Shown: positions 24,445-34,128 of the stretch, piece by piece | Layout: every line of letters begins with the position of its first letter | Position numbering within the stretch: the stretch's first letter is position 1 | Source: Thermotoga sp. | GTDB lineage: Bacteria > Thermotogota > Thermotogae > Mesoaciditogales > Mesoaciditogaceae | Reading direction: 5' to 3' | Assembly (NCBI GenBank): GCA_020722015.1 | Contig: DYLQ01000019.1 | Coordinates: 1 to 34,176, forward strand | Length of the DNA: 34,176 nt | Notes under the pieces: model-generated | The model's input: the letters and a program-made list of their open reading frames with translations, nothing else | The model's database searches: none | What the model was told of the DNA's origin: nothing | Translations under genes and position numbers: made by a program

Positions 24445-24450
24445 TATAAT
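24445..24450 (+). promoter_or_regulatory. -10 box of the lysA operon promoter
   Basis: A perfect TATAAT, with a weak TTTCTT 17 nt upstream (24422-24427). Transcription would begin near 24457, leaving a leader of about 26 nt before TTG 24483 with AAGGACGG as ribosome site. Confidence 0.65.
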
Positions 24451-24482
24451 TGATTTACATGTTGAAAAAAAGGACGGATATC

Positions 24483-25664
24483 TTGGACAAAAACATTTTT
24501 TATGAGGCGGCAAAAAAATACGGTACACCGTTGTACTTTTACGATCTCAACGAAATTAAGAGGAGGATAAAACTCGTTGAAGACACTCTAAAGGGTCTGA
24601 ATTTTAAAATCTTTTTTGCAATGAAGGCCAATTCCAATCCTTATCTTTTGAAATTCATACATTCTTATGGTATCGGTGCGGATACGGTTTCTGTCAATGA
24701 GTACAAAATGGCACAATTTGCGGGTTTTTTACCCGATGAGATAGTGGTAAATGGAAATGGCAAAAGCATGAGTGACATCTCTTTTTACGCCCGAGAAAAT
24801 CCTCTGTGCGTTAACGTTGATTCTTACGAAGAAATAGAGAAAATCGGTTCTCTTCCCATGCATATAGCTTTGAGAATAAATCCAAACGTTGATCCGAAAA
24901 CACATCCTCACATTTCAACAGGACTTAGGGAAAACAAATTTGGAATGGACTTTGAAACGGCAAAGACAGTTATAAAATCTCTGCCGGCTAACTTGAACCT
25001 TGTCGGACTTCATTGTCATATTGGCTCTCAGATAACCGAAATAGAGCCATTCATTGAGGCCTTTTCATCGCTAAAATCCTTTGTGAGAGAGGAAAGACTC
25101 GATCTTGAATTTATAAATGTCGGCGGAGGATGGGGCATAGATTACACGGATAAAGGAGAAGGTATCAACTTGGCACGCTATGAAAACGAAGCATTGCAGA
25201 TATTATCGTCTTTCGATCTTCCAATATATTTCGAATTGGGAAGATTTATAATAGGTTCTGCCGGATATCTTATTACAGAAGTTACGGAGATAAAAAGTAC
25301 ACCGCACAAAAATTTTGTCATCGTCGATGCATCTATGGCCGATCTGATAAGACCTGCTCTTTACGATGCTCATCATGAAATAGAATTTTTGTCCGGCAAA
25401 TCAGAAATGATCGCAGATGTAGCGGGTCGTATTTGTGAAAGTGGAGATGTTTTTGCACATGGGAAAAAAATAAAAGCTCCTGAAATAGGAGAAATTGGTC
25501 TGATTCACGATGTAGGTGCTTACGGATATTCCATGTCTTCGAATTACAATCTCTCTACGAGGCCGGCCGAGGTTGCCTTTAACGGTGATGATCTCATTTT
25601 GATAAGAAGAAGAGAAAACTTTGAAGATCTTTTAAGGTTTATTGAGGAGGAGCAAAGTTCATGA
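24483..25664 (+). CDS. lysA: Diaminopimelate decarboxylase
   Basis: A 393-aa fold-type III PLP enzyme that decarboxylates meso-diaminopimelate to L-lysine, the last step of lysine synthesis. The PLP lysine is in 'FFAMKANSNPYLL'. 'LHCHIGSQ' and 'NVGGGWGIDY' form the phosphate-binding part. 'GRICESGDVFA' carries the catalytic Cys from the partner subunit. The start is TTG 24483, preceded by AAGGACGG; in-frame codons further upstream (24450-24462) overlap the -10 box. The ATGA overlap with the ptb gene shows translational coupling. Confidence 0.92.
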   Translation: MDKNIFYEAAKKYGTPLYFYDLNEIKRRIKLVEDTLKGLNFKIFFAMKANSNPYLLKFIHSYGIGADTVSVNEYKMAQFAGFLPDEIVVNGNGKSMSDISFYARENPLCVNVDSYEEIEKIGSLPMHIALRINPNVDPKTHPHISTGLRENKFGMDFETAKTVIKSLPANLNLVGLHCHIGSQITEIEPFIEAFSSLKSFVREERLDLEFINVGGGWGIDYTDKGEGINLARYENEALQILSSFDLPIYFELGRFIIGSAGYLITEVTEIKSTPHKNFVIVDASMADLIRPALYDAHHEIEFLSGKSEMIADVAGRICESGDVFAHGKKIKAPEIGEIGLIHDVGAYGYSMSSNYNLSTRPAEVAFNGDDLILIRRRENFEDLLRFIEEEQSS

Positions 25665-26542
25665 AAAAATTTGATGAGGTTTTCGAAAAAGTAAAGAAAA
25701 AAAAGAAGAAAGTTGTCCTTGTAGGGGCCGAAGATCCTGAGTCTTTGACGGCAGTTGATGAAGCTGTTAAACTTGGTTTTATCGATGCCTTATTGGTTGG
25801 AAATGGGAAAACAATCAAAGATATGCTTAAAAATCTCGGAATCAAAGATGATTTCGAAATCATCGATTCAGAACCAAATACGTCTTCAGAGGTGGGCGTT
25901 AAAATAATTTCATCCGGACGAGCAGATATTCTTATGAAAGGACTCGTGAAGACAAGCGCTCTTTTAAAAGCCGTTTTAAATCCGGAATGGGGACTGAGAA
26001 CGGGATCACTCTTAAGTCATCTTACAGTTGTCGAAGCCAAAGATTACGATAGGTTTATAGGGATAACGGACGGTGGTATGATAATAAGGCCAACGCTTGA
26101 TCAGAAGGTTCAAATCATAAATAACGCCGTTTCGTTTTTCAAAAAGCTTGAAATTGATACACCAAAAGTTGCATGTATAGCAGCGGTTGAGGTGGTAAAC
26201 CAGGATATGCCTGAAACAATGGAAGCCGCAGAACTTGCCATGATGTGGAAAAGAAATCAAATAGGTGGTTGTATCGTAGAAGGGCCACTTGGCTTTGACA
26301 ATGCAATAGATGAAAGGGCTGCCAAAGTAAAGAGGATAACCAACGATGTGGCAGGTCATGCGGATATCTTATTAGTTCCGGATATACATTCTGGGAACTT
26401 CATAGGAAAGACTATGGATTATTGTGCCCATTACACAATAGGAGGTATAGTGCTTGGAGCAAAAGCACCCATAGTCGTTGTGTCAAGAGCAGACGAGGCA
26501 AGATCCAAACTTGCATCAATATCTTTAAGTGCGCTTATGTGA
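25661..26542 (+). CDS. ptb: Phosphate butyryltransferase
   Basis: A 293-aa member of the phosphate acetyl/butaryl transferase family, closest by pattern to the butyryl form: 'VVLVGAEDPESLTAVDEAV', 'LMKGLVKTSALLKAVL', 'GLRTGSLLSHLTV' and 'DNAIDERAAKVKRI'. It interconverts an acyl-CoA such as butyryl- or branched-chain acyl-CoA and acyl phosphate. A butyrate/acetate kinase is normally needed to make ATP from the product; none is adjacent, and the next gene is carbamate kinase. The start ATG overlaps the lysA stop, with GGAGGAG upstream. Confidence 0.9.
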   Translation: MKKFDEVFEKVKKKKKKVVLVGAEDPESLTAVDEAVKLGFIDALLVGNGKTIKDMLKNLGIKDDFEIIDSEPNTSSEVGVKIISSGRADILMKGLVKTSALLKAVLNPEWGLRTGSLLSHLTVVEAKDYDRFIGITDGGMIIRPTLDQKVQIINNAVSFFKKLEIDTPKVACIAAVEVVNQDMPETMEAAELAMMWKRNQIGGCIVEGPLGFDNAIDERAAKVKRITNDVAGHADILLVPDIHSGNFIGKTMDYCAHYTIGGIVLGAKAPIVVVSRADEARSKLASISLSALM

Positions 26543-26557
26543 AGAGGAGGATAGAAC

Positions 26558-27499
26558 ATGAAGAAAAGTGCCGTTATAGCGATAGGCGGAAATGCGATTC
26601 AAGGGCCAAAAGAGTTACCAACGGCTGAAGTGATGAGGAAAAATTTGAATTCAACGGCTCGTTATCTTGTTCAAATGTTAGATGACATAAATGTCGTAAT
26701 AACCCATGGAAACGGACCTCAAGTTGGAAATTTGATGGTCCAACAGGATCGTGCAAAGGAGTTAATTCCACCACTTCCTCTTGACCTTAACGATGCTTAT
26801 ACCCAAGGTATGTTGGGATATCTTATCGTGGAAGCCATGGAAAACCAACTTTTAAACTACAATCTTAAAAGACAATGTGCTGCAATCGTCACACAGGTTG
26901 TCGTGGATCCCAAAGATAAGGCATTTCAAAATCCAACTAAACCGGTAGGACCTTTTTATGATGCCAAAGAGGCTGAAAGACTTGCAAGAGAAAAAGGTTG
27001 GAAGATGAAAGAAGATGCCGGACGTGGATACAGACGCGTTGTCCCATCACCTGAGCCTCTTGATATAGTCGAAAAAGATCTGATAAAAGAGTTGATGGAG
27101 AAAGGTGTTTTAACCGTAGCCGTTGGTGGTGGAGGAATACCGGTTTTGAAAGAAAGCAATGGGATGATAAAGGGAGTTGAGGCAGTCATAGATAAAGATC
27201 GCGCATCATCTTTAATTGCGCGGATACTTGATGTTGATATTTTCATGATCCTTACGGGAGTGGATGAGGTTTACCTCAATTATGGAAAATCAGATCAAAA
27301 AGTTTTAAGGGAACTTAAAGTTTCAGATGCAAAGGCATATTTGAGTGATAACCAATTTCCATCTGGCTCTATGGGCCCCAAGGTAGAAGCAGCCATTTCT
27401 TTTGTCGAAAAAACAGGTCGTCAATGTGTAATAACGTCTTTGGAAAAAGTCTCAGAGGCCATGAAAGGTAGATCAGGTACATTTGTAATTCCAGGGTAA
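26558..27499 (+). CDS. arcC: Carbamate kinase
   Basis: A 313-aa amino-acid-kinase-family enzyme that makes ATP and carbamate from carbamoyl phosphate and ADP in arginine, citrulline or purine fermentation. It has 'VIAIGGNAIQGP' at the N-terminus, 'VVITHGNGPQVGNLMVQQ', 'RRVVPSPEP', 'VAVGGGGIPVL' and 'FPSGSMGPKVEAAISF', all typical of ArcC. AGAGGAGGAT precedes the ATG. It follows ptb by 15 nt and precedes the regulator-like gene by 13 nt. arcA and arcB are not in the window. Confidence 0.95.
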   Translation: MKKSAVIAIGGNAIQGPKELPTAEVMRKNLNSTARYLVQMLDDINVVITHGNGPQVGNLMVQQDRAKELIPPLPLDLNDAYTQGMLGYLIVEAMENQLLNYNLKRQCAAIVTQVVVDPKDKAFQNPTKPVGPFYDAKEAERLAREKGWKMKEDAGRGYRRVVPSPEPLDIVEKDLIKELMEKGVLTVAVGGGGIPVLKESNGMIKGVEAVIDKDRASSLIARILDVDIFMILTGVDEVYLNYGKSDQKVLRELKVSDAKAYLSDNQFPSGSMGPKVEAAISFVEKTGRQCVITSLEKVSEAMKGRSGTFVIPG

Positions 27500-27512: not shown

Positions 27513-28649
27513 GTGAATATACTTATTCCTGTTGGTTTGAAAAGCAAAATAAATGATTTTGATCACACAACTTACGTAAAAATAGAAGATGAGATCTACT
27601 CTCACTTCTGGGATGTCGTTGTTGTTGAAAACATGGATGATTTAAAAATAGTCATGCAATTTCAGAAATTTGGAATTCAGATTGTCTACGTTGGAATTGA
27701 AAAGGTAAAAAACGTTTTAAATGTAAATGTAGATGACATAGAGGTCTTTCTTAGCCTTTTCAATTCTGTATTGGAAAAAAGCAAAGAAATAGATACTCTG
27801 AAAAAAAATCAAGATTTACTTTTTGAACCGATGAGTCTAAGTTCAAAAATGGCTATGGCATATGAAAAACTTTCTAAACTTGTTCAATCGAGAATGGCCA
27901 CTGTTACAGCCCAAAACGGACTTTTAGAAGAATGGATACTTTCAAAGACGATTGGGCAGCATGAAACCTTTGATTTCTCAGTTCTCCAAGAAGAAGAGAT
28001 ACTACTTAGACTTTTTGGATCAAAAAATCATCTTCCGTTATTTTTGAAATCCACGGTTATAGTTTTGATGAATTGCGATCTTGCGAATCCCGCTTCTGTA
28101 TTGAAAATAGCAATGGCTTCGTCTAACGGGTATTTTCAGATATACGGAGTGAATGATAAAAAAACGTGCAATGCAAAATTGATCCTTCATTTTGAAAATT
28201 CAGCAAATATTCCAAAACCGATTTCACAATTATCCGGGAAACATTTCGTCGAAATACCCGCATTGAAAGAGATATCAGACGATCTGCCGACAATTTTCAG
28301 GTTTACGGTTTCAACCATGGCCCAAAATACCAAAAACGTTTCTTTTAACTTCTCGGATGATGTCTTTGAAAGTTTAAAAAGGGAAGAATGGTCCGAAAAT
28401 TGGAGAAGTTTTTTCAAATTTTGTAATGCTTTCATATCTGGCGAGACTGCGATTCATAAAGATATTGAAAATGATTCCGAAATTCCCAAGATGAGAGACT
28501 ACATCAAAAATATAACAAGCGCGGGAGAAAATATTTTGATAAAAAAGGCGATCGAACGTTACAAAAATGACAAGAAAAAAATATGCAAGGCTCTTGGCAT
28601 AAACATCAAAACTCTTAACAAGAAACTGAAAATCTACAATTTAAAATGA
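27513..28649 (+). CDS. Degenerate NtrC-like (sigma-54 activator-like) protein with Fis-type HTH
   Basis: A 378-aa protein I could assign only by layout. Residues about 1-100 look like a receiver- or sensor-sized alpha/beta domain. Residues about 110-300 trace a sigma-54-activator AAA+ domain: 'SLSSKMAMAYEKLSKLVQSRMATVTAQNG' (in pieces) and 'LLRLFGSKNHL' for the ESELFG region, then 'EIPALKEISDDLPTIFRF' in place of LPPLRERxEDI. The Walker A motif, the GAFTGA loop and the Walker B DE are all lost. Residues about 340-378 form a clear Fis-type HTH (IKKAIERYKNDKKKICKALGI). It should bind DNA but not hydrolyse ATP. GTG start after GGGGGAAGAG; the stop overlaps the next start (ATGA). Confidence 0.65.
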   Translation: MNILIPVGLKSKINDFDHTTYVKIEDEIYSHFWDVVVVENMDDLKIVMQFQKFGIQIVYVGIEKVKNVLNVNVDDIEVFLSLFNSVLEKSKEIDTLKKNQDLLFEPMSLSSKMAMAYEKLSKLVQSRMATVTAQNGLLEEWILSKTIGQHETFDFSVLQEEEILLRLFGSKNHLPLFLKSTVIVLMNCDLANPASVLKIAMASSNGYFQIYGVNDKKTCNAKLILHFENSANIPKPISQLSGKHFVEIPALKEISDDLPTIFRFTVSTMAQNTKNVSFNFSDDVFESLKREEWSENWRSFFKFCNAFISGETAIHKDIENDSEIPKMRDYIKNITSAGENILIKKAIERYKNDKKKICKALGINIKTLNKKLKIYNLK

Positions 28650-30241
28650 AAATCATAGTTTATCTTTCCTTAGATCCTCAGAAGGCGAAAGAAGAAAATC
28701 TTCCAGTTTCTCTTCCTTTGCTTGAAGAAGATTTTGAAGATGCCGTCAAAAAGAACAAACTCGATCCTGACATGATAGTAAGAGGTCTAAAGGCTCAAAT
28801 AGAGACAGGTAAAAAAGCCGAATATTACTTGCCTTATCTTGTTTATTTTCTTTACGATCTGGCGAGATCTTACATAAACGCTGGCAAATTTCAAGAGGCA
28901 AGAGAAATGGTTGAAGAAGCGGCAAGTTACAAAAAAGATTACAGATATCCTCTTCACCTTGGAATAATAGAAAGATTGTCTGGAAATCTCGAAAAATCTG
29001 AAATACTTTTAAAAGAAGCTATTGCCATGAATTCGGAATATCTTCCGATTAGAATAGAACTTGCCAGAACACTGATGGATCAGTCAGAATTCGAAGAAGT
29101 TATCAATATATGCAAAGAAATAATACAATTGGATCCCTCTTTCACCGTGACATATCTTTTAATGGGAGATGCCTATCTCGCCCTTGGAGATGCCAAATCG
29201 GCTATAACACTCTACCAGCAGGCATTGGCCATTGATAACGATCTTCCCGTTCACTGGAGAATTGGCGTTTCTGCCAACATGCTTCAGAAATTTTCACTTG
29301 CCGAGAAAGAGTTTAGAATTTCGTTGTCTAAAAACGAGGGCGGATGGCACGTGAAATACGATCTTTCTTACTCACTTTACAGACAGGGCAAAATCTTAGA
29401 AGCCCTCCAATTGCTCTCAGAAATTCAAAGAATTGGGATCGAGGCGCCGGAAGTTTTAACCGAGATGTTAATACTTCAAAAATCGATTGGCCTTTACGAA
29501 GAAGCGCTTGAAACCGTTGAAAAAGGTATGAACATGAAAATAGAAGAAGAAGGATTTCTGCTTGCATCGATAGATGTTTACGCATTTAACGGTATGATGG
29601 ATAAGGCCTTGGAACTTGTCGAGTTTTTGCCTTCAGATTTTGCCGGTTCGAGAAAACAGTTGCTTGAATTTGAAGATAAATGGGGAAAGCAGATAGATCT
29701 CGTTACACTTGCAGAGCTAATCGATATTTCAAAACCAGAAGTAAAAAGTAAAATAGAAGATGTAAAAAAAGGTATTGTAAGTGGAAATAAAGTTTTCGAT
29801 GTTACGATGCTTTCAATTGTAAATGAGATTATAAAAGTTCATGGTACTCATTTCTATTCGGCTGAATCCTCTCTTACAAAATCTGCAATGGCTTTTTCAG
29901 GATCAGTTGAAACGATTGCAATCTTCATTTTTTTGTACAGGATCTACTTTTACACGCATGCACTTGGTTACAAATTGAAAGAGGCAATTGAAATCGTTAT
30001 ACCACAGATAACGGATATATCATGGAAGGTTGGCTACGAAATTGCCAAGGTTTTTGAAGCAGAGGAAATGACGGATATTGAGGATATGTCTCAAAAGCTT
30101 GAAAATCCCGTTGATGTGGCAAAATTTTTCACGTCAGCGTTGACTTTACTTGAAGATGAAAAAGATCGATCCAATTTTCTCAGTTCAGTCAACACGCCCG
30201 AGGTTGTAATAGCACTCATCGAAACGATCTACGAAAGTTAA
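28646..30241 (+). CDS. TPR-repeat protein of unknown function
   Basis: A 531-aa cytoplasmic protein without signal peptide. Residues about 65-330 hold roughly seven TPR units, for example 'YLPIRIELARTLMDQSEFEEVINICKEIIQLDP' in parts and 'TYLLMGDAYLALGDAKSAITLYQQALAID'. The C-terminal ~190 residues are helical and not TPR-like, with a hydrophobic patch (ETIAIFIFLYRIYFY); I do not recognise this domain. The ATG overlaps the stop of the NtrC-like gene, so the two are translated together and may interact. The gene ends 13 nt from the convergent MFS gene without a hairpin. Confidence 0.75.
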   Translation: MKIIVYLSLDPQKAKEENLPVSLPLLEEDFEDAVKKNKLDPDMIVRGLKAQIETGKKAEYYLPYLVYFLYDLARSYINAGKFQEAREMVEEAASYKKDYRYPLHLGIIERLSGNLEKSEILLKEAIAMNSEYLPIRIELARTLMDQSEFEEVINICKEIIQLDPSFTVTYLLMGDAYLALGDAKSAITLYQQALAIDNDLPVHWRIGVSANMLQKFSLAEKEFRISLSKNEGGWHVKYDLSYSLYRQGKILEALQLLSEIQRIGIEAPEVLTEMLILQKSIGLYEEALETVEKGMNMKIEEEGFLLASIDVYAFNGMMDKALELVEFLPSDFAGSRKQLLEFEDKWGKQIDLVTLAELIDISKPEVKSKIEDVKKGIVSGNKVFDVTMLSIVNEIIKVHGTHFYSAESSLTKSAMAFSGSVETIAIFIFLYRIYFYTHALGYKLKEAIEIVIPQITDISWKVGYEIAKVFEAEEMTDIEDMSQKLENPVDVAKFFTSALTLLEDEKDRSNFLSSVNTPEVVIALIETIYES

Positions 30242-30254
30242 AATGCAAAGAAGA

Positions 30255-31439
30255 TCAATCGTTCTTTTTGAAAAAATGCCAATAAAGTGCGGCGTTGGCA
30301 AATTGAAAAACGGCGGCGATGAGAATTGGCGCTTCCATCATTGAATAATCCATGAAGTAACCACTTGCGGTTGGTCCTATCGAAGATGTTATTTGCTGTG
30401 GCAAATTACTTAATGCTGCCATTGAAGCACGTTCTTCCTCTTTGGCCTGACCCATGGTAAATGATTGCCTTAGAGGTATTCCCGTGGATACAAAAAACAT
30501 TCTCAACAGATAAAAAAGCCCTGCAAGGAATAAAGTTGGCATTAAGGCCATAAAAATGAGCGTAACGGCCCCGATTATCCTTACACCTACTATCGTTTTT
30601 ACAGTACCAAAGAATTTTGCCATGCGTGCCGAAGATATAGAAGAAATCGCACGTGCAATGTTGGAAAGCACGTAAATTATGCTTATAAAATCGACACTGG
30701 CACCATATCTTACGAAAAACCAGTAAACAAGTATTGGTCCGCTGAAAAATCCAGTTCCAAGTCCATTCACGGCATTTGTCAAAGAGAACTTTCCCAGCAA
30801 TTTCCACGAGAGTTTGAAAGTATTCTGGCGCTTAGACCTGTTTTTATTTTCCCGAACTAACAAAGTTATGAAGAAAGTGGAAATGTAGATGATAAGTGCA
30901 AGAGCCATCAAAAACAAATATCCCCCTCGCCATCCTTCATTAAAAACATTTGATATGTAAGGCAAGGCGATGGTAAGTGCGTATCCTATCGTACTTCCTA
31001 TGGCTCCGAAAAAAGAAAAAGTACCGAAAACTTCGTTTCGGAACTTTGAATCCGCACTTTCGGCAATCAAAGCCTGTTGAGCCGCACCAGCTGCGCCTCC
31101 GCCGCCTCCGCCTCGTATCGTTCCAATCGACACGAAAAGCATAAGGGGAATATAACTTGTCGTCAAAAAAAATCCGATAACGCTCAAAGAGTTCACAACC
31201 GTCATGATAAGAATAACGAGTTTTCTACCGTATTTATCCGCAAAAAATCCGACGCCTATTGAGAAGATTATTCCAACTATCACCGACAGCGTGAAAGCAA
31301 AACCAATCTGAACTCCTGAAAGGCCCAATTTTGAAAGGTATATGGGCACAAGAATGGTCAAAGAAGCCTGGGCAACACTTCTTAAAAATCTGCTTATCAT
31401 TAACAGCGAAAGGTTACGATTTAGCCATTTGTTGAACGT
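30255..31439 (-). CDS. MFS transporter with apparent ACG start and Gly-rich tract
   Basis: A membrane transporter with about 12 helices. From ATG 31400 it has 381 aa, starting 'ISRFLRSVAQASLTILVPIYL', inside the first helix and with no ribosome site. The frame continues upstream to ACG 31439, giving FNKWLNRNLSLLMISRF, a typical N-terminal cap. That ACG has GGGGTGAT 7 nt upstream, the spacing expected for a start. The intracellular loop 2-3 signature 'GFFADKYGRKLVIL' is clear. 'RGGGGGGAAGAAQQALIAES' marks an unusual glycine run near the fourth helix. Substrate unknown. It follows the DHA2 gene on the same strand after a hairpin. Confidence 0.8.
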   Translation of the reverse strand, partial: TFNKWLNRNLSLLMISRFLRSVAQASLTILVPIYLSKLGLSGVQIGFAFTLSVIVGIIFSIGVGFFADKYGRKLVILIMTVVNSLSVIGFFLTTSYIPLMLFVSIGTIRGGGGGGAAGAAQQALIAESADSKFRNEVFGTFSFFGAIGSTIGYALTIALPYISNVFNEGWRGGYLFLMALALIIYISTFFITLLVRENKNRSKRQNTFKLSWKLLGKFSLTNAVNGLGTGFFSGPILVYWFFVRYGASVDFISIIYVLSNIARAISSISSARMAKFFGTVKTIVGVRIIGAVTLIFMALMPTLFLAGLFYLLRMFFVSTGIPLRQSFTMGQAKEEERASMAALSNLPQQITSSIGPTASGYFMDYSMMEAPILIAAVFQFANAALYWHFFKKND

Positions 31440-31455
31440 GCGATCACCCCGAATC

Positions 31456-31484
31456 GAAAAGACTTCACACTAAGTGCGAAGTCT
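31456..31484 (-). terminator. Hairpin terminator after the DHA2 efflux gene
   Basis: AGACTTC (31460-31466) pairs with GAAGTCT (31478-31484), with an inner CAC/GTG pairing and one mismatch. On the minus strand the stem is followed by TTTTC (short). The loop-side sequence resembles that of the hairpin at 18719-18743. Its T-run is weak, so some read-through into the next MFS gene is possible. Confidence 0.6.
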
Positions 31485-31503
31485 GTCATGTCAAAATATT
31501 CAA

Positions 31504-32976
31504 TCATTTTGTATTTTCTTTTGATAACTTGGTTGATTCTGAACTTGCGTCACTCCATACCGGAGTCGGCCCCCTCATGTAAGAAATCACGGCTGCAGCT
31601 ATGCTTATTATAAAGGATAGTAAAAATGCAAAACGTAAATCGGATATGAAAGTATCGACGAATATGCCTTTGCCTCCTATCTGAGCGCCTATGAACAATG
31701 CATCCATAGCCTGAGGCGTGAGTCCTGACGAGAGAATCGCGAATGCCATGGCTATACTTATTACAGAACCAGCGTTCATAAGCATCGTCCTTGTGCTTCC
31801 GGCAATTCCTCTTCTTTCCGGCGGAACGAGACCCATTATCGTGCTTATATTAGGCGAATTAAACATTCCGGATCCGAATCCCATGACCGTTCCCCAGAGC
31901 ACGATCTCGAACATTGACATGTCTACCCTTGTGAAGAGAGAATATCCGAGCAGACCGATTCCGGAAATCAAAAGACCGACTGAACTCAAGATTCTTGATC
32001 CATGTCTATCGGCCAATCTTCCACTTATGGGCGCCATGATCATCATGGCAGCGGCAAATGGTATTAGGTAAATGCTTGCCGTGAAAGGATCCATGTTTTT
32101 GATGCCAAGCAGATAGAAGATGAGCAGAAACATCAGAGCACCCCTTGCGAGTCCATTTATAAGGTCAGAGCTGTACGCGAAGAACAAAATCCTCGACTTG
32201 AAAAGTCTCAGATCAAGCATGGGTTGTTTTACCTTTGATTCCACGTAGACGAACAGAGGTATGAGTATTGCCGATAAGATGAAAAAGGTTATCACAATCG
32301 GAGATGTCCATCCTCCAAATCCACCCTCCGTCAGAGCGTAGAGGAAAAAGAAGAGACCAGATGTAAAAGATATGGCCCCTAGCCAGTCGAACTTTTCTCC
32401 TTTCGGTATAGGCGCTATGTCTTTTATTTGTATCAATGCCCAGACAGTTACAAGTGCACCTAAGGGAACGTTCATGTAAAAGATCCATCTCCATCCGACG
32501 GTTACTGTTAAAATACCACCTATTATAGGACCTATTGCAGAACCGACGGCTACTATCAAACCGTTTATTCCGAGCGCCATTCCGAGTTCTCCTTTTGGAA
32601 AGGCATCTGTAACTATTGCAGTGCCGTTTGCCATCATCAAAGAACCGCCGACGGATTGAATGATCCTTATCACCAAAAGTTCTATGCCACTTTGAGACAT
32701 GCCTGCAAATAGAGATGCGAGAGTAAATATCGCAGCTCCAAGCACAAAGAGTCTTTTTCTCCCTATCATATCTGCAACGCGCCCAATTGATGGAACGAGC
32801 ACGGTTGTAGTCAACATGTAACTCATCAAAACCCAGATTATGATTATCATCGGAGCCTTGAGATCTGCTGCAACATTCGGAAGCGCTATCAAAAGTGCTG
32901 TTCCGGTCATAACTCCGATCAACGTACCCAAGCTCGTGGCAGAAAGTGCGAGCCATTTGTATTGAATCTTTTTCAT
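31504..32976 (-). CDS. DHA2-family (EmrB/QacA-type) 14-TM drug efflux MFS
   Basis: A 490-aa transporter with the 14-helix DHA2 pattern. It shows the 'GRVADMIGRKRLFVLG' loop between helices 2 and 3, the helix-5 motif C in 'GLIVAVGSAIGPIIGGILT', and 'WRWIFYMNVPLGA' following it, all diagnostic for proton-driven multidrug efflux. It follows the MBL gene by 4 nt and a marR gene upstream, the usual arrangement for a MarR-controlled efflux operon. Substrates cannot be told from sequence. The last residues (SDASSESTKLSKENTK) are a hydrophilic cytoplasmic tail. Confidence 0.92.
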   Translation of the reverse strand: MKKIQYKWLALSATSLGTLIGVMTGTALLIALPNVAADLKAPMIIIIWVLMSYMLTTTVLVPSIGRVADMIGRKRLFVLGAAIFTLASLFAGMSQSGIELLVIRIIQSVGGSLMMANGTAIVTDAFPKGELGMALGINGLIVAVGSAIGPIIGGILTVTVGWRWIFYMNVPLGALVTVWALIQIKDIAPIPKGEKFDWLGAISFTSGLFFFLYALTEGGFGGWTSPIVITFFILSAILIPLFVYVESKVKQPMLDLRLFKSRILFFAYSSDLINGLARGALMFLLIFYLLGIKNMDPFTASIYLIPFAAAMMIMAPISGRLADRHGSRILSSVGLLISGIGLLGYSLFTRVDMSMFEIVLWGTVMGFGSGMFNSPNISTIMGLVPPERRGIAGSTRTMLMNAGSVISIAMAFAILSSGLTPQAMDALFIGAQIGGKGIFVDTFISDLRFAFLLSFIISIAAAVISYMRGPTPVWSDASSESTKLSKENTK

Positions 32977-32980
32977 ATGA

Positions 32981-33673
32981 TCAGCTTCTTCCCTCGATTA
33001 ATGCCCTGTAAAAGTCTTTGACTTTTATGGAAGCCTTCGGTTTTAAAGGTTCTCCGTGACCGCTGAGCATGATGTCGTAATCGATTTTAGTGAGCTTTTC
33101 CATCATTTTAATTGCCAAATCCATATCCGGTGTGAACTGTTCAGGCGGACCCTGAATTTTGCCGTCCATGTATCTTAGCTCGTCTCCGACAAATAAGATT
33201 TTTTTATCAACGCTGTAAAGTGAAATACTGCCAGGTGTATGGCCAGGATTATGTATCACGACAAAACCGTCTACAACGTCGTTCTCTTTAAGTAAAATAT
33301 CTGGTTCGACGTATTTAACCTTGAAAAAAGGAGATGCGACCTTGAATGCGGCTCCAGCCAATCCCTTTGGAGAAGGCATCTTTTCTTTTCCGGAGACGTA
33401 TGGTGCATCCTTCTCATGAACGTACAACTTTGCGTTTGTCAATTTTTTTAGTTCGAAAGCATTACCAATGTGATCTACGTGGCAGTGTGTGAGTATTATC
33501 TTGGTGACGTCTGATGGCTTTTTACCAAGATGTTTTATGTAATCAAGGATCTTGCCTAACTGACCGGGCATGCCTGTATCGATAATCGTCAGATTGTTGT
33601 CATTTACAACAATGTAGACGTTGGCATTTGTTCCATCAACAAGATGAATTCCATTTGATATTTCCACAACCAT
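32981..33673 (-). CDS. MBL-fold metallo-hydrolase
   Basis: A 230-aa metallo-beta-lactamase-fold protein. Di-metal ligands are 'LTHCHVDHIGNA' (HxHxDH), the His of 'HNPGHTPGS', the Asp of 'LFVGDEL' and the His of 'LSGHGEPL'. The set is complete, as in glyoxalase II-like and lactonase-like hydrolases; the substrate is not known. The gene lies between marR and the DHA2 efflux gene, with 8-nt and 4-nt gaps, so it may detoxify a compound that is also exported. ATG 33673 sits close to AGGAG; GTG 33667 (MEISNGIHLVDG) has better spacing and is a good alternative. Confidence 0.88.
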   Translation of the reverse strand: MVVEISNGIHLVDGTNANVYIVVNDNNLTIIDTGMPGQLGKILDYIKHLGKKPSDVTKIILTHCHVDHIGNAFELKKLTNAKLYVHEKDAPYVSGKEKMPSPKGLAGAAFKVASPFFKVKYVEPDILLKENDVVDGFVVIHNPGHTPGSISLYSVDKKILFVGDELRYMDGKIQGPPEQFTPDMDLAIKMMEKLTKIDYDIMLSGHGEPLKPKASIKVKDFYRALIEGRS

Positions 33674-33681
33674 CTCTCCTT

Positions 33682-34128
33682 TTATTTTTCAAAATTTTGC
33701 AAAATGTCGACAGTTTCCTTTATGGTCGAAAAAGCGCCAAGAAGCTTTTCAAATTGCTCATCTGAAAGTACGCTCAATTTTTCATTAACGTAATTTCTCA
33801 TGGCCTTTTCTATTTCTAACGCTTTCTCTCGACCTCTTTCTGTTAATTCTATGAAAACGGCTCTTCTATCTTTATCCGTCCTGAATCTTTTAACATAGCC
33901 TGCTTTGACAAGTACATCTGTTGCCGCAGTTAAAGTACTTTTTATGAATCCGGATTTGTTTTCTATTTCAGACATCTGCGCGCAAGTTTGGGAATGCCTT
34001 TCCATGAAGATAAGGACAGACGCAGATGTTTTCGGAAGTTTCGTCCTCGAATAGTCGAAACTTTTGAAAGCTATCTTTGAAAAAGTCGAATAAGCCATAA
34101 GAAGATCCTCTGGTACTTCATGATTCAT
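33682..34128 (-). CDS. MarR-family transcriptional regulator
   Basis: A 148-aa winged-helix regulator. The recognition-helix region is 'FIKSTLTAATDVLVKAGYVKRF', and the wing carries 'RTDKDRRAVFIELTERGREKAL', the MarR signature. Flanking helices form the dimer interface. It is the first gene of a unit with the MBL hydrolase and the DHA2 efflux pump and most likely represses it until a ligand binds. A 7-bp inverted repeat 30 nt upstream of the start is a good candidate for its own operator. The ribosome site is weak (GTGAT). Confidence 0.92.
   Translation of the reverse strand: MNHEVPEDLLMAYSTFSKIAFKSFDYSRTKLPKTSASVLIFMERHSQTCAQMSEIENKSGFIKSTLTAATDVLVKAGYVKRFRTDKDRRAVFIELTERGREKALEIEKAMRNYVNEKLSVLSDEQFEKLLGAFSTIKETVDILQNFEK

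Follow-up and report, generated by a model that had tools for sequence, protein, structure and literature searches.

The window, the whole 34,176-nucleotide stretch of DNA that was analyzed, contains an apparent operon in which lysA, ptb, arcC, the gene under study (hereafter the regulator), and a gene for a tetratricopeptide repeat (TPR) protein lie in this order, separated by −4 to 15 nt. The regulator is an open reading frame of 378 codons with a GTG start and a stop at 28649, and it occupies the location first assigned to it. The features of the operon are the following.

24445..24450, plus strand: TATAAT, candidate −10 element preceding lysA (consensus only; the upstream alignment shows it conserved in the nearest relative, without a good −35 element)
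24450..25664, plus strand: lysA, at the head of the apparent operon (NCBIfam TIGR01048 above cut-off; 4-nt overlap with ptb)
25661..26542, plus strand: ptb-like phosphate acyltransferase (Pfam PTA_PTB; the best NCBIfam models are phosphate butyryltransferases, under their cut-offs)
26558..27499, plus strand: arcC, carbamate kinase, directly upstream of the regulator (NCBIfam equivalog TIGR00746, 399 bits versus a cut-off of 358)
27513..28649, plus strand: regulator gene, degenerate NtrC-type protein of 378 amino acids (open reading frame; fold and profile matches; orthologues in 42 genomes)
28646..30241, plus strand: TPR protein, 4-nt overlap with the regulator gene (Pfam TPR; synteny)

The initial annotation had placed the regulator next to ptb. 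In fact arcC lies in between and ptb is two genes upstream. The accompanying analogy to clostridial ptb clusters, which are often run by sigma-54 activators, is loose; ptb is indeed a conserved partner, but so is the carbamate kinase gene. No useful literature was found on ptb together with carbamate kinase or on TM1576. The minus strand at 30255-34128 of the window encodes two MFS transporters, a metallo-beta-lactamase-fold protein, and a MarR-type regulator, and looks like an ordinary transport locus.

In a Pfam search of the 378-residue protein, the Fis-type helix-turn-helix (HTH) was the sole domain recognized, and no Sigma54_activat match was obtained. Residues 1-72 gave no Pfam receiver match and show no recognized phosphorylation site. 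NtrC-type NCBIfam models matched from residue 246 to the C terminus, far under cut-off. Across 25 family members, HTH_8 was matched in 24 and AAA_lid_14 in 20, the window member itself not being among the latter. Together with alignments and a structural model, the following layout was assigned.

27513..27728, plus strand: degenerate receiver-like domain, residues 1-72 (strands and helices alternate in the model; receiver, core, and HTH are all covered in the Foldseek alignments to NtrX and NtrC1)
27729..27836, plus strand: long linker helix from receiver to core, residues 73-108 (DSSP of the AlphaFold2 model)
27837..28241, plus strand: former AAA+ alpha/beta core, residues 109-243 (alignment to intact activators; hhalign; pLDDT mostly 81-93)
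27909..27932, plus strand: former Walker A site, residues 133-140, AQNGLLEE versus GESGTGKE (alignment)
28011..28031, plus strand: former loop-1 site, residues 167-173, LFGSKNH, GAFTGA segment absent (alignment, 9-column gap)
28053..28076, plus strand: former Walker B site, residues 181-188, TVIVLMNC versus GVIFLDEI (alignment)
28242..28436, plus strand: AAA+ lid region, residues 244-308, IPALKEISDDLP...WSENWRSF (AAA_lid_14 in the family; alignment)
28527..28634, plus strand: Fis-type HTH, residues 339-374 (Pfam HTH_8, E 1.3e-6, above cut-off)

The motifs were compared by alignment with the intact sigma-54 activators of the same genome. Where these carry the Walker A sequence GESGTGKE and the Walker B sequence FLDEI, the regulator has AQNGLLEE and VLMNC. 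The GAFTGA loop is replaced by a clean 9-column gap directly after a retained LFG, and both the sensor-I asparagine and the arginine-finger segment FRxDLxxR are missing. As judged from these alignments, the protein thus lacks every ATPase and sigma-54-contact motif. The resemblance to NtrC-type proteins is nevertheless extensive. When the regulator family was compared with the six intact activators of the genome by hhalign, a probability of 98.4% (E 7.8e-15) was obtained across core, lid, and HTH. An AlphaFold2 model built from ten family sequences reached a mean pLDDT of 80 and a pTM of 0.58, indicating that single domains are better defined than their mutual arrangement. In a Foldseek search of the PDB the model matched NtrX (7e-15), NtrC1 (1.5e-12), and PspF (about 1e-9), as well as NtrC4, VpsR, and FleQ. 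The predicted fold and the domain order ending in a Fis-type HTH therefore indicate that the regulator descends from an NtrC-type sigma-54 activator and consists of a degenerate receiver, an AAA+ core, a lid, and the HTH. The initial annotation had described an NtrC-type outline with a good Fis-type HTH that had lost Walker A, GAFTGA, and Walker B; all of this was borne out, and the predicted structure does show the AAA+ resemblance whose absence would have counted against it.

The loss of every ATPase motif could be taken to mean that a former activator is decaying into a pseudogene. The dN/dS ratio was, however, 0.11 when the nearest relative was used for comparison, and two further pairs gave 0.07 and 0.13. 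This level is similar to that of the TPR neighbor and above that of arcC, and the ratio was low across every domain. The reading frame is open in all ten genomes of the window's family, Mesoaciditogaceae (labeled f1; f2, f3, and so on denote the other families of the genome set). Synteny is conserved as well, and new invariant sequence stands in place of the lost motifs. The regulator is under purifying selection and is not decaying; these selection data already contradict the pseudogene reading, which we regard as extremely improbable.

Among the ten f1 sequences, conservation peaks at the former Walker A stretch (residues 128-145), where the mean identity is 0.68 compared with 0.60 in the HTH and 0.50 in the lid, and residues G136, L137, L138, and E139 are invariant within the family. 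This pattern suggests that the site was rebuilt for a new role and did not simply drift. As for the role itself, one rather speculative idea is that the former ATP site in f1 has become a new, tightly conserved ligand pocket that would sense a metabolite or a metal for the ptb-arcC operon; the phylum would then preserve the stepwise change of a sigma-54 activator into a plain transcription factor. The pocket would comprise the invariant residues G136-L137-L138-E139, W141, H173, C188-D189, C219, and H226. The iron-binding NtrC-family regulator XibR was considered as a precedent for metal sensing and rejected, because it keeps GETGTGK and GAFTGA.

The distribution of the family was analyzed at two levels. 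With the single protein as the query, the gene was recovered from all ten f1 genomes (40-81% identity), and matches outside f1 were weaker. In a scan of the genome collection with the alignment of the close family, the named relatives were Athalassotoga saccharophila and Mesoaciditogaceae metagenome-assembled genomes (MAGs), the host itself lying near Athalassotoga. The orthologue in A. saccharophila NAS-01 (L067:10001-11128) shares 54% identity. A profile of 25 members was then run on 103 genomes of the class Thermotogae. As this profile also matches ordinary activators, members were selected on the basis of their length, the loss of motifs, and synteny, and a second profile served to check the short ones. 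Orthologues were assigned in 42 of the 103 genomes (f1, 10; f2, 10; f3, 3; f4, 1; f8, 1; f10, 9; f11, 8), so that the degenerate form is shared by relatives, a point that the initial annotation had left for checking. The f1 proteins and the short f2/f10/f11 proteins matched each other over their full length, including the N-terminal domain, at 99.7% (E 1.8e-25), which is better than the match of f1 to intact activators. In a tree of the lid and HTH all 40 sampled members fell on one side of one branch, with weak support (87/31). The shape of the protein is graded. Members from f1 have a full-length core without the motifs; those from f3, f4, and f8 (about 395-425 amino acids) keep a Walker B-like strand, for example GIIFLDNF in f8; and in f11, f2, and f10 (about 285-330 amino acids) much of the AAA+ core is gone, although the model of an f11 protein still resembles NtrX and FleQ.

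Linkage to the metabolic genes is also conserved. In 33 of the 42 members arcC or ptb lies directly upstream (f1, 10/10; f4, 1/1; f3, 3/3; f10, 9/9; f2, 10/10), and in all ten f1 genomes the TPR gene comes next after the regulator, usually with the 4-nt overlap. The f8 member sits on a short contig without ptb or arcC. In f11 the gene stands apart from both. It is convergent with prfB-secA there, as it also is in some f2 genomes, which supports orthology. In f10 an M55-ptb-(arcC)-regulator-ispD cluster and dnaA are transcribed divergently, with about 230-280 bp between them (L079, L081, L095, L097, L098, and L099).

These data bear on two other functions. A nucleoid-type DNA-binding protein like Fis, which also has an NtrC-type HTH, would fit the recognition of the HTH by Pfam in nearly all members and the shrinkage of the core to proteins of 285-330 residues in several families. 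Yet purifying selection acts on the rest of the protein too, the gene is single copy and stands at or near the end of a conserved metabolic operon, and its 378 residues are four times the length of Fis, whose equivalog model gave 16.7 bits where the cut-off is 99. The single copy and the conserved linkage to the operon favor a specific regulator over the structural DNA protein that the initial annotation had offered as one outcome, and a nucleoid role appears quite improbable. The second function is that of a wider regulator, perhaps of the c-di-GMP type like VpsR and FleQ, with ptb-arcC as one target among several. Because the f11 gene is kept apart from ptb and arcC, control of that operon cannot be its sole job there. 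VpsR and FleQ are among the matches of the model, and in one f2 genome a gene for a GAF-GGDEF diguanylate cyclase (L078:8706-10310) lies ahead of the M55-ptb-regulator cluster, with similar-sized genes in the same position in L088, L089, and L094. In f1, on the other hand, the cluster has no GGDEF gene, and Foldseek ranked VpsR and FleQ no better than ordinary activators. We consider the wider role unlikely, if a little less so than the nucleoid one.

A search of the window with the sigma-54 promoter consensus TGGCAYRNNNNTTGCW, allowing up to two mismatches, gave 21 matches versus 12.8 expected; all had two mismatches and none lay on the plus strand ahead of lysA. The −24/−12 promoter that the initial annotation had proposed to look for ahead of ptb-like genes was thus not found before the operon in any close form. 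Upstream of the operons no shared operator was found; palindromes differed between genomes and none stood out.

To judge dependence on sigma-54, rpoN was scored with PF00309, PF04552, and a custom RpoN profile. The host genome encodes a full-length RpoN of about 421 amino acids (activator-interacting domain, E 4.6e-12; DNA-binding domain, E 5.8e-44) together with six strong Sigma54_activat proteins, and rpoN is present in all ten f1 genomes. From PF00309 alone, f2, f4, and part of f10 would have been classed as lacking rpoN; this was rejected, as PF04552 and the RpoN profile reveal sigma-54 there. The orthologue co-occurs with rpoN in 23 genomes (f1, f8, f4, f2, and one f10) and is found without a convincing rpoN in 19 (f3, eight f10, and f11), although some MAGs are incomplete and single absences, above all in f3, may be gaps. 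Six of the eight f11 genomes have the gene but lack both a convincing rpoN and any Sigma54_activat domain at 1e-20, and there the regulator must work without the two. Its retention with and without rpoN suggests, from co-occurrence, that the family is independent of sigma-54 and that the stripping is not explained by sigma-54 loss. The view of the gene as a fossil left after sigma-54 had disappeared, put forward in the initial annotation, is accordingly not upheld; the host has sigma-54, and the gene is under purifying selection.

The same distribution was used to weigh an anti-activator role, in which the regulator would form mixed oligomers with intact activators, or compete for enhancer sites, and so damp sigma-54 transcription. 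The host does have rpoN and six strong activators, and the core and lid of the regulator resemble theirs. Such a role is hard to reconcile with persistence of the family where rpoN is not convincing and, in the six f11 genomes, without any activator domain at 1e-20, and the neighbors are metabolic rather than activator genes. We rate it as improbable as a nucleoid function.

Several other sigma-54-related loci were observed. The RpoN loci L113, L114, L115, L116, L119, and L120 of f2 and f10 encode a compact sigma-54 of about 289-333 amino acids with an RpoN box (e.g. SRRTVNKYR) in which Pfam recognizes no activator-interacting domain; the genomes concerned still have an activator that carries GAFTGA or GSFTGA. 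L107 (f10, no rpoN found) and L033, L035, L036, L038, and L039 (f7) contain PAS-type activators in which the GAFTGA loop is either altered to GAFLGA or absent. The hosts are mostly without rpoN, and this represents a second, apparently independent loss of sigma-54 contact. The window's own genome also encodes a second degenerate activator (L009:844-2013, contig C21) adjoining the intact paralogue L007. It keeps the Walker A sequence GESGSGKH, lacks the GAFTGA loop, and has VIEDLG at Walker B.

Taken together, the regulator probably controls its own ptb-arcC operon without requiring ATP or sigma-54; it is conserved in Thermotogota and would be comparable to TyrR, DhaR, and VpsR while being more thoroughly stripped. 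It keeps the lid and the Fis-type HTH, as well as the receiver and AAA+ scaffold in remodeled form. The protein is probably dimeric and would dimerize via the HTH and the old receiver/AAA+ parts, which may serve as a scaffold and perhaps as a sensor. It would bind an operator of the operon and exert control at ordinary sigma-70-type promoters, with repression marginally favored over activation. In place of phosphorylation and ATP, the switch may now be a metabolite or the TPR protein, which is translationally coupled. The operon presumably serves acyl-phosphate and carbamoyl-phosphate metabolism, for which the protein is a candidate regulator in Thermotogota.

Activator relatives without sigma-54 contact have been known one by one. 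Here, one family within one phylum presents graded states, from the remodeled full-length core (f1) through partial retention of a Walker B-like strand (f3, f4, and f8) to a core mostly cut away (f2, f10, and f11), in hosts with sigma-54, compact sigma-54, or none. The order in which ATPase, sigma-54 contact, and sigma-54 itself were lost thereby becomes testable by comparison. The sigma-54 activators NtrX, NtrC1, NtrC4, and PspF are the best structural matches and share the domain order of the regulator, but the regulator lacks all of the ATPase and sigma-54-contact motifs. TyrR and DhaR from E. coli and HupR from Rhodobacter capsulatus are sigma-54-independent relatives of these activators that have lost the GAFTGA contact, act at sigma-70 promoters, and keep the Fis-type HTH (PMC3162934). 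The regulator, likewise an activator-derived protein with an HTH and without GAFTGA, is a candidate member of this class. In contrast to the GAFTGA changes or small deletion described for these proteins (PMC3162934), it also lacks Walker A, Walker B, sensor I, and the arginine fingers, and its partner genes differ. VpsR from Vibrio cholerae, an NtrC-type protein with a defective GAFTGA (PMC3162934), acts together with sigma-70 polymerase and c-di-GMP (PMC9303241). The Foldseek matches of the regulator include the VpsR structure, but the gene context is different. FleQ from Pseudomonas aeruginosa has a phosphorylation-incompetent receiver and exerts ATP-independent, sigma-70-dependent regulation at some promoters (PMC10723142). 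Unlike the regulator, FleQ additionally works as an ATPase and as a sigma-54 activator, and its partner FleN is an ATPase (PMC10723142), whereas the neighbor of the regulator is a TPR protein.
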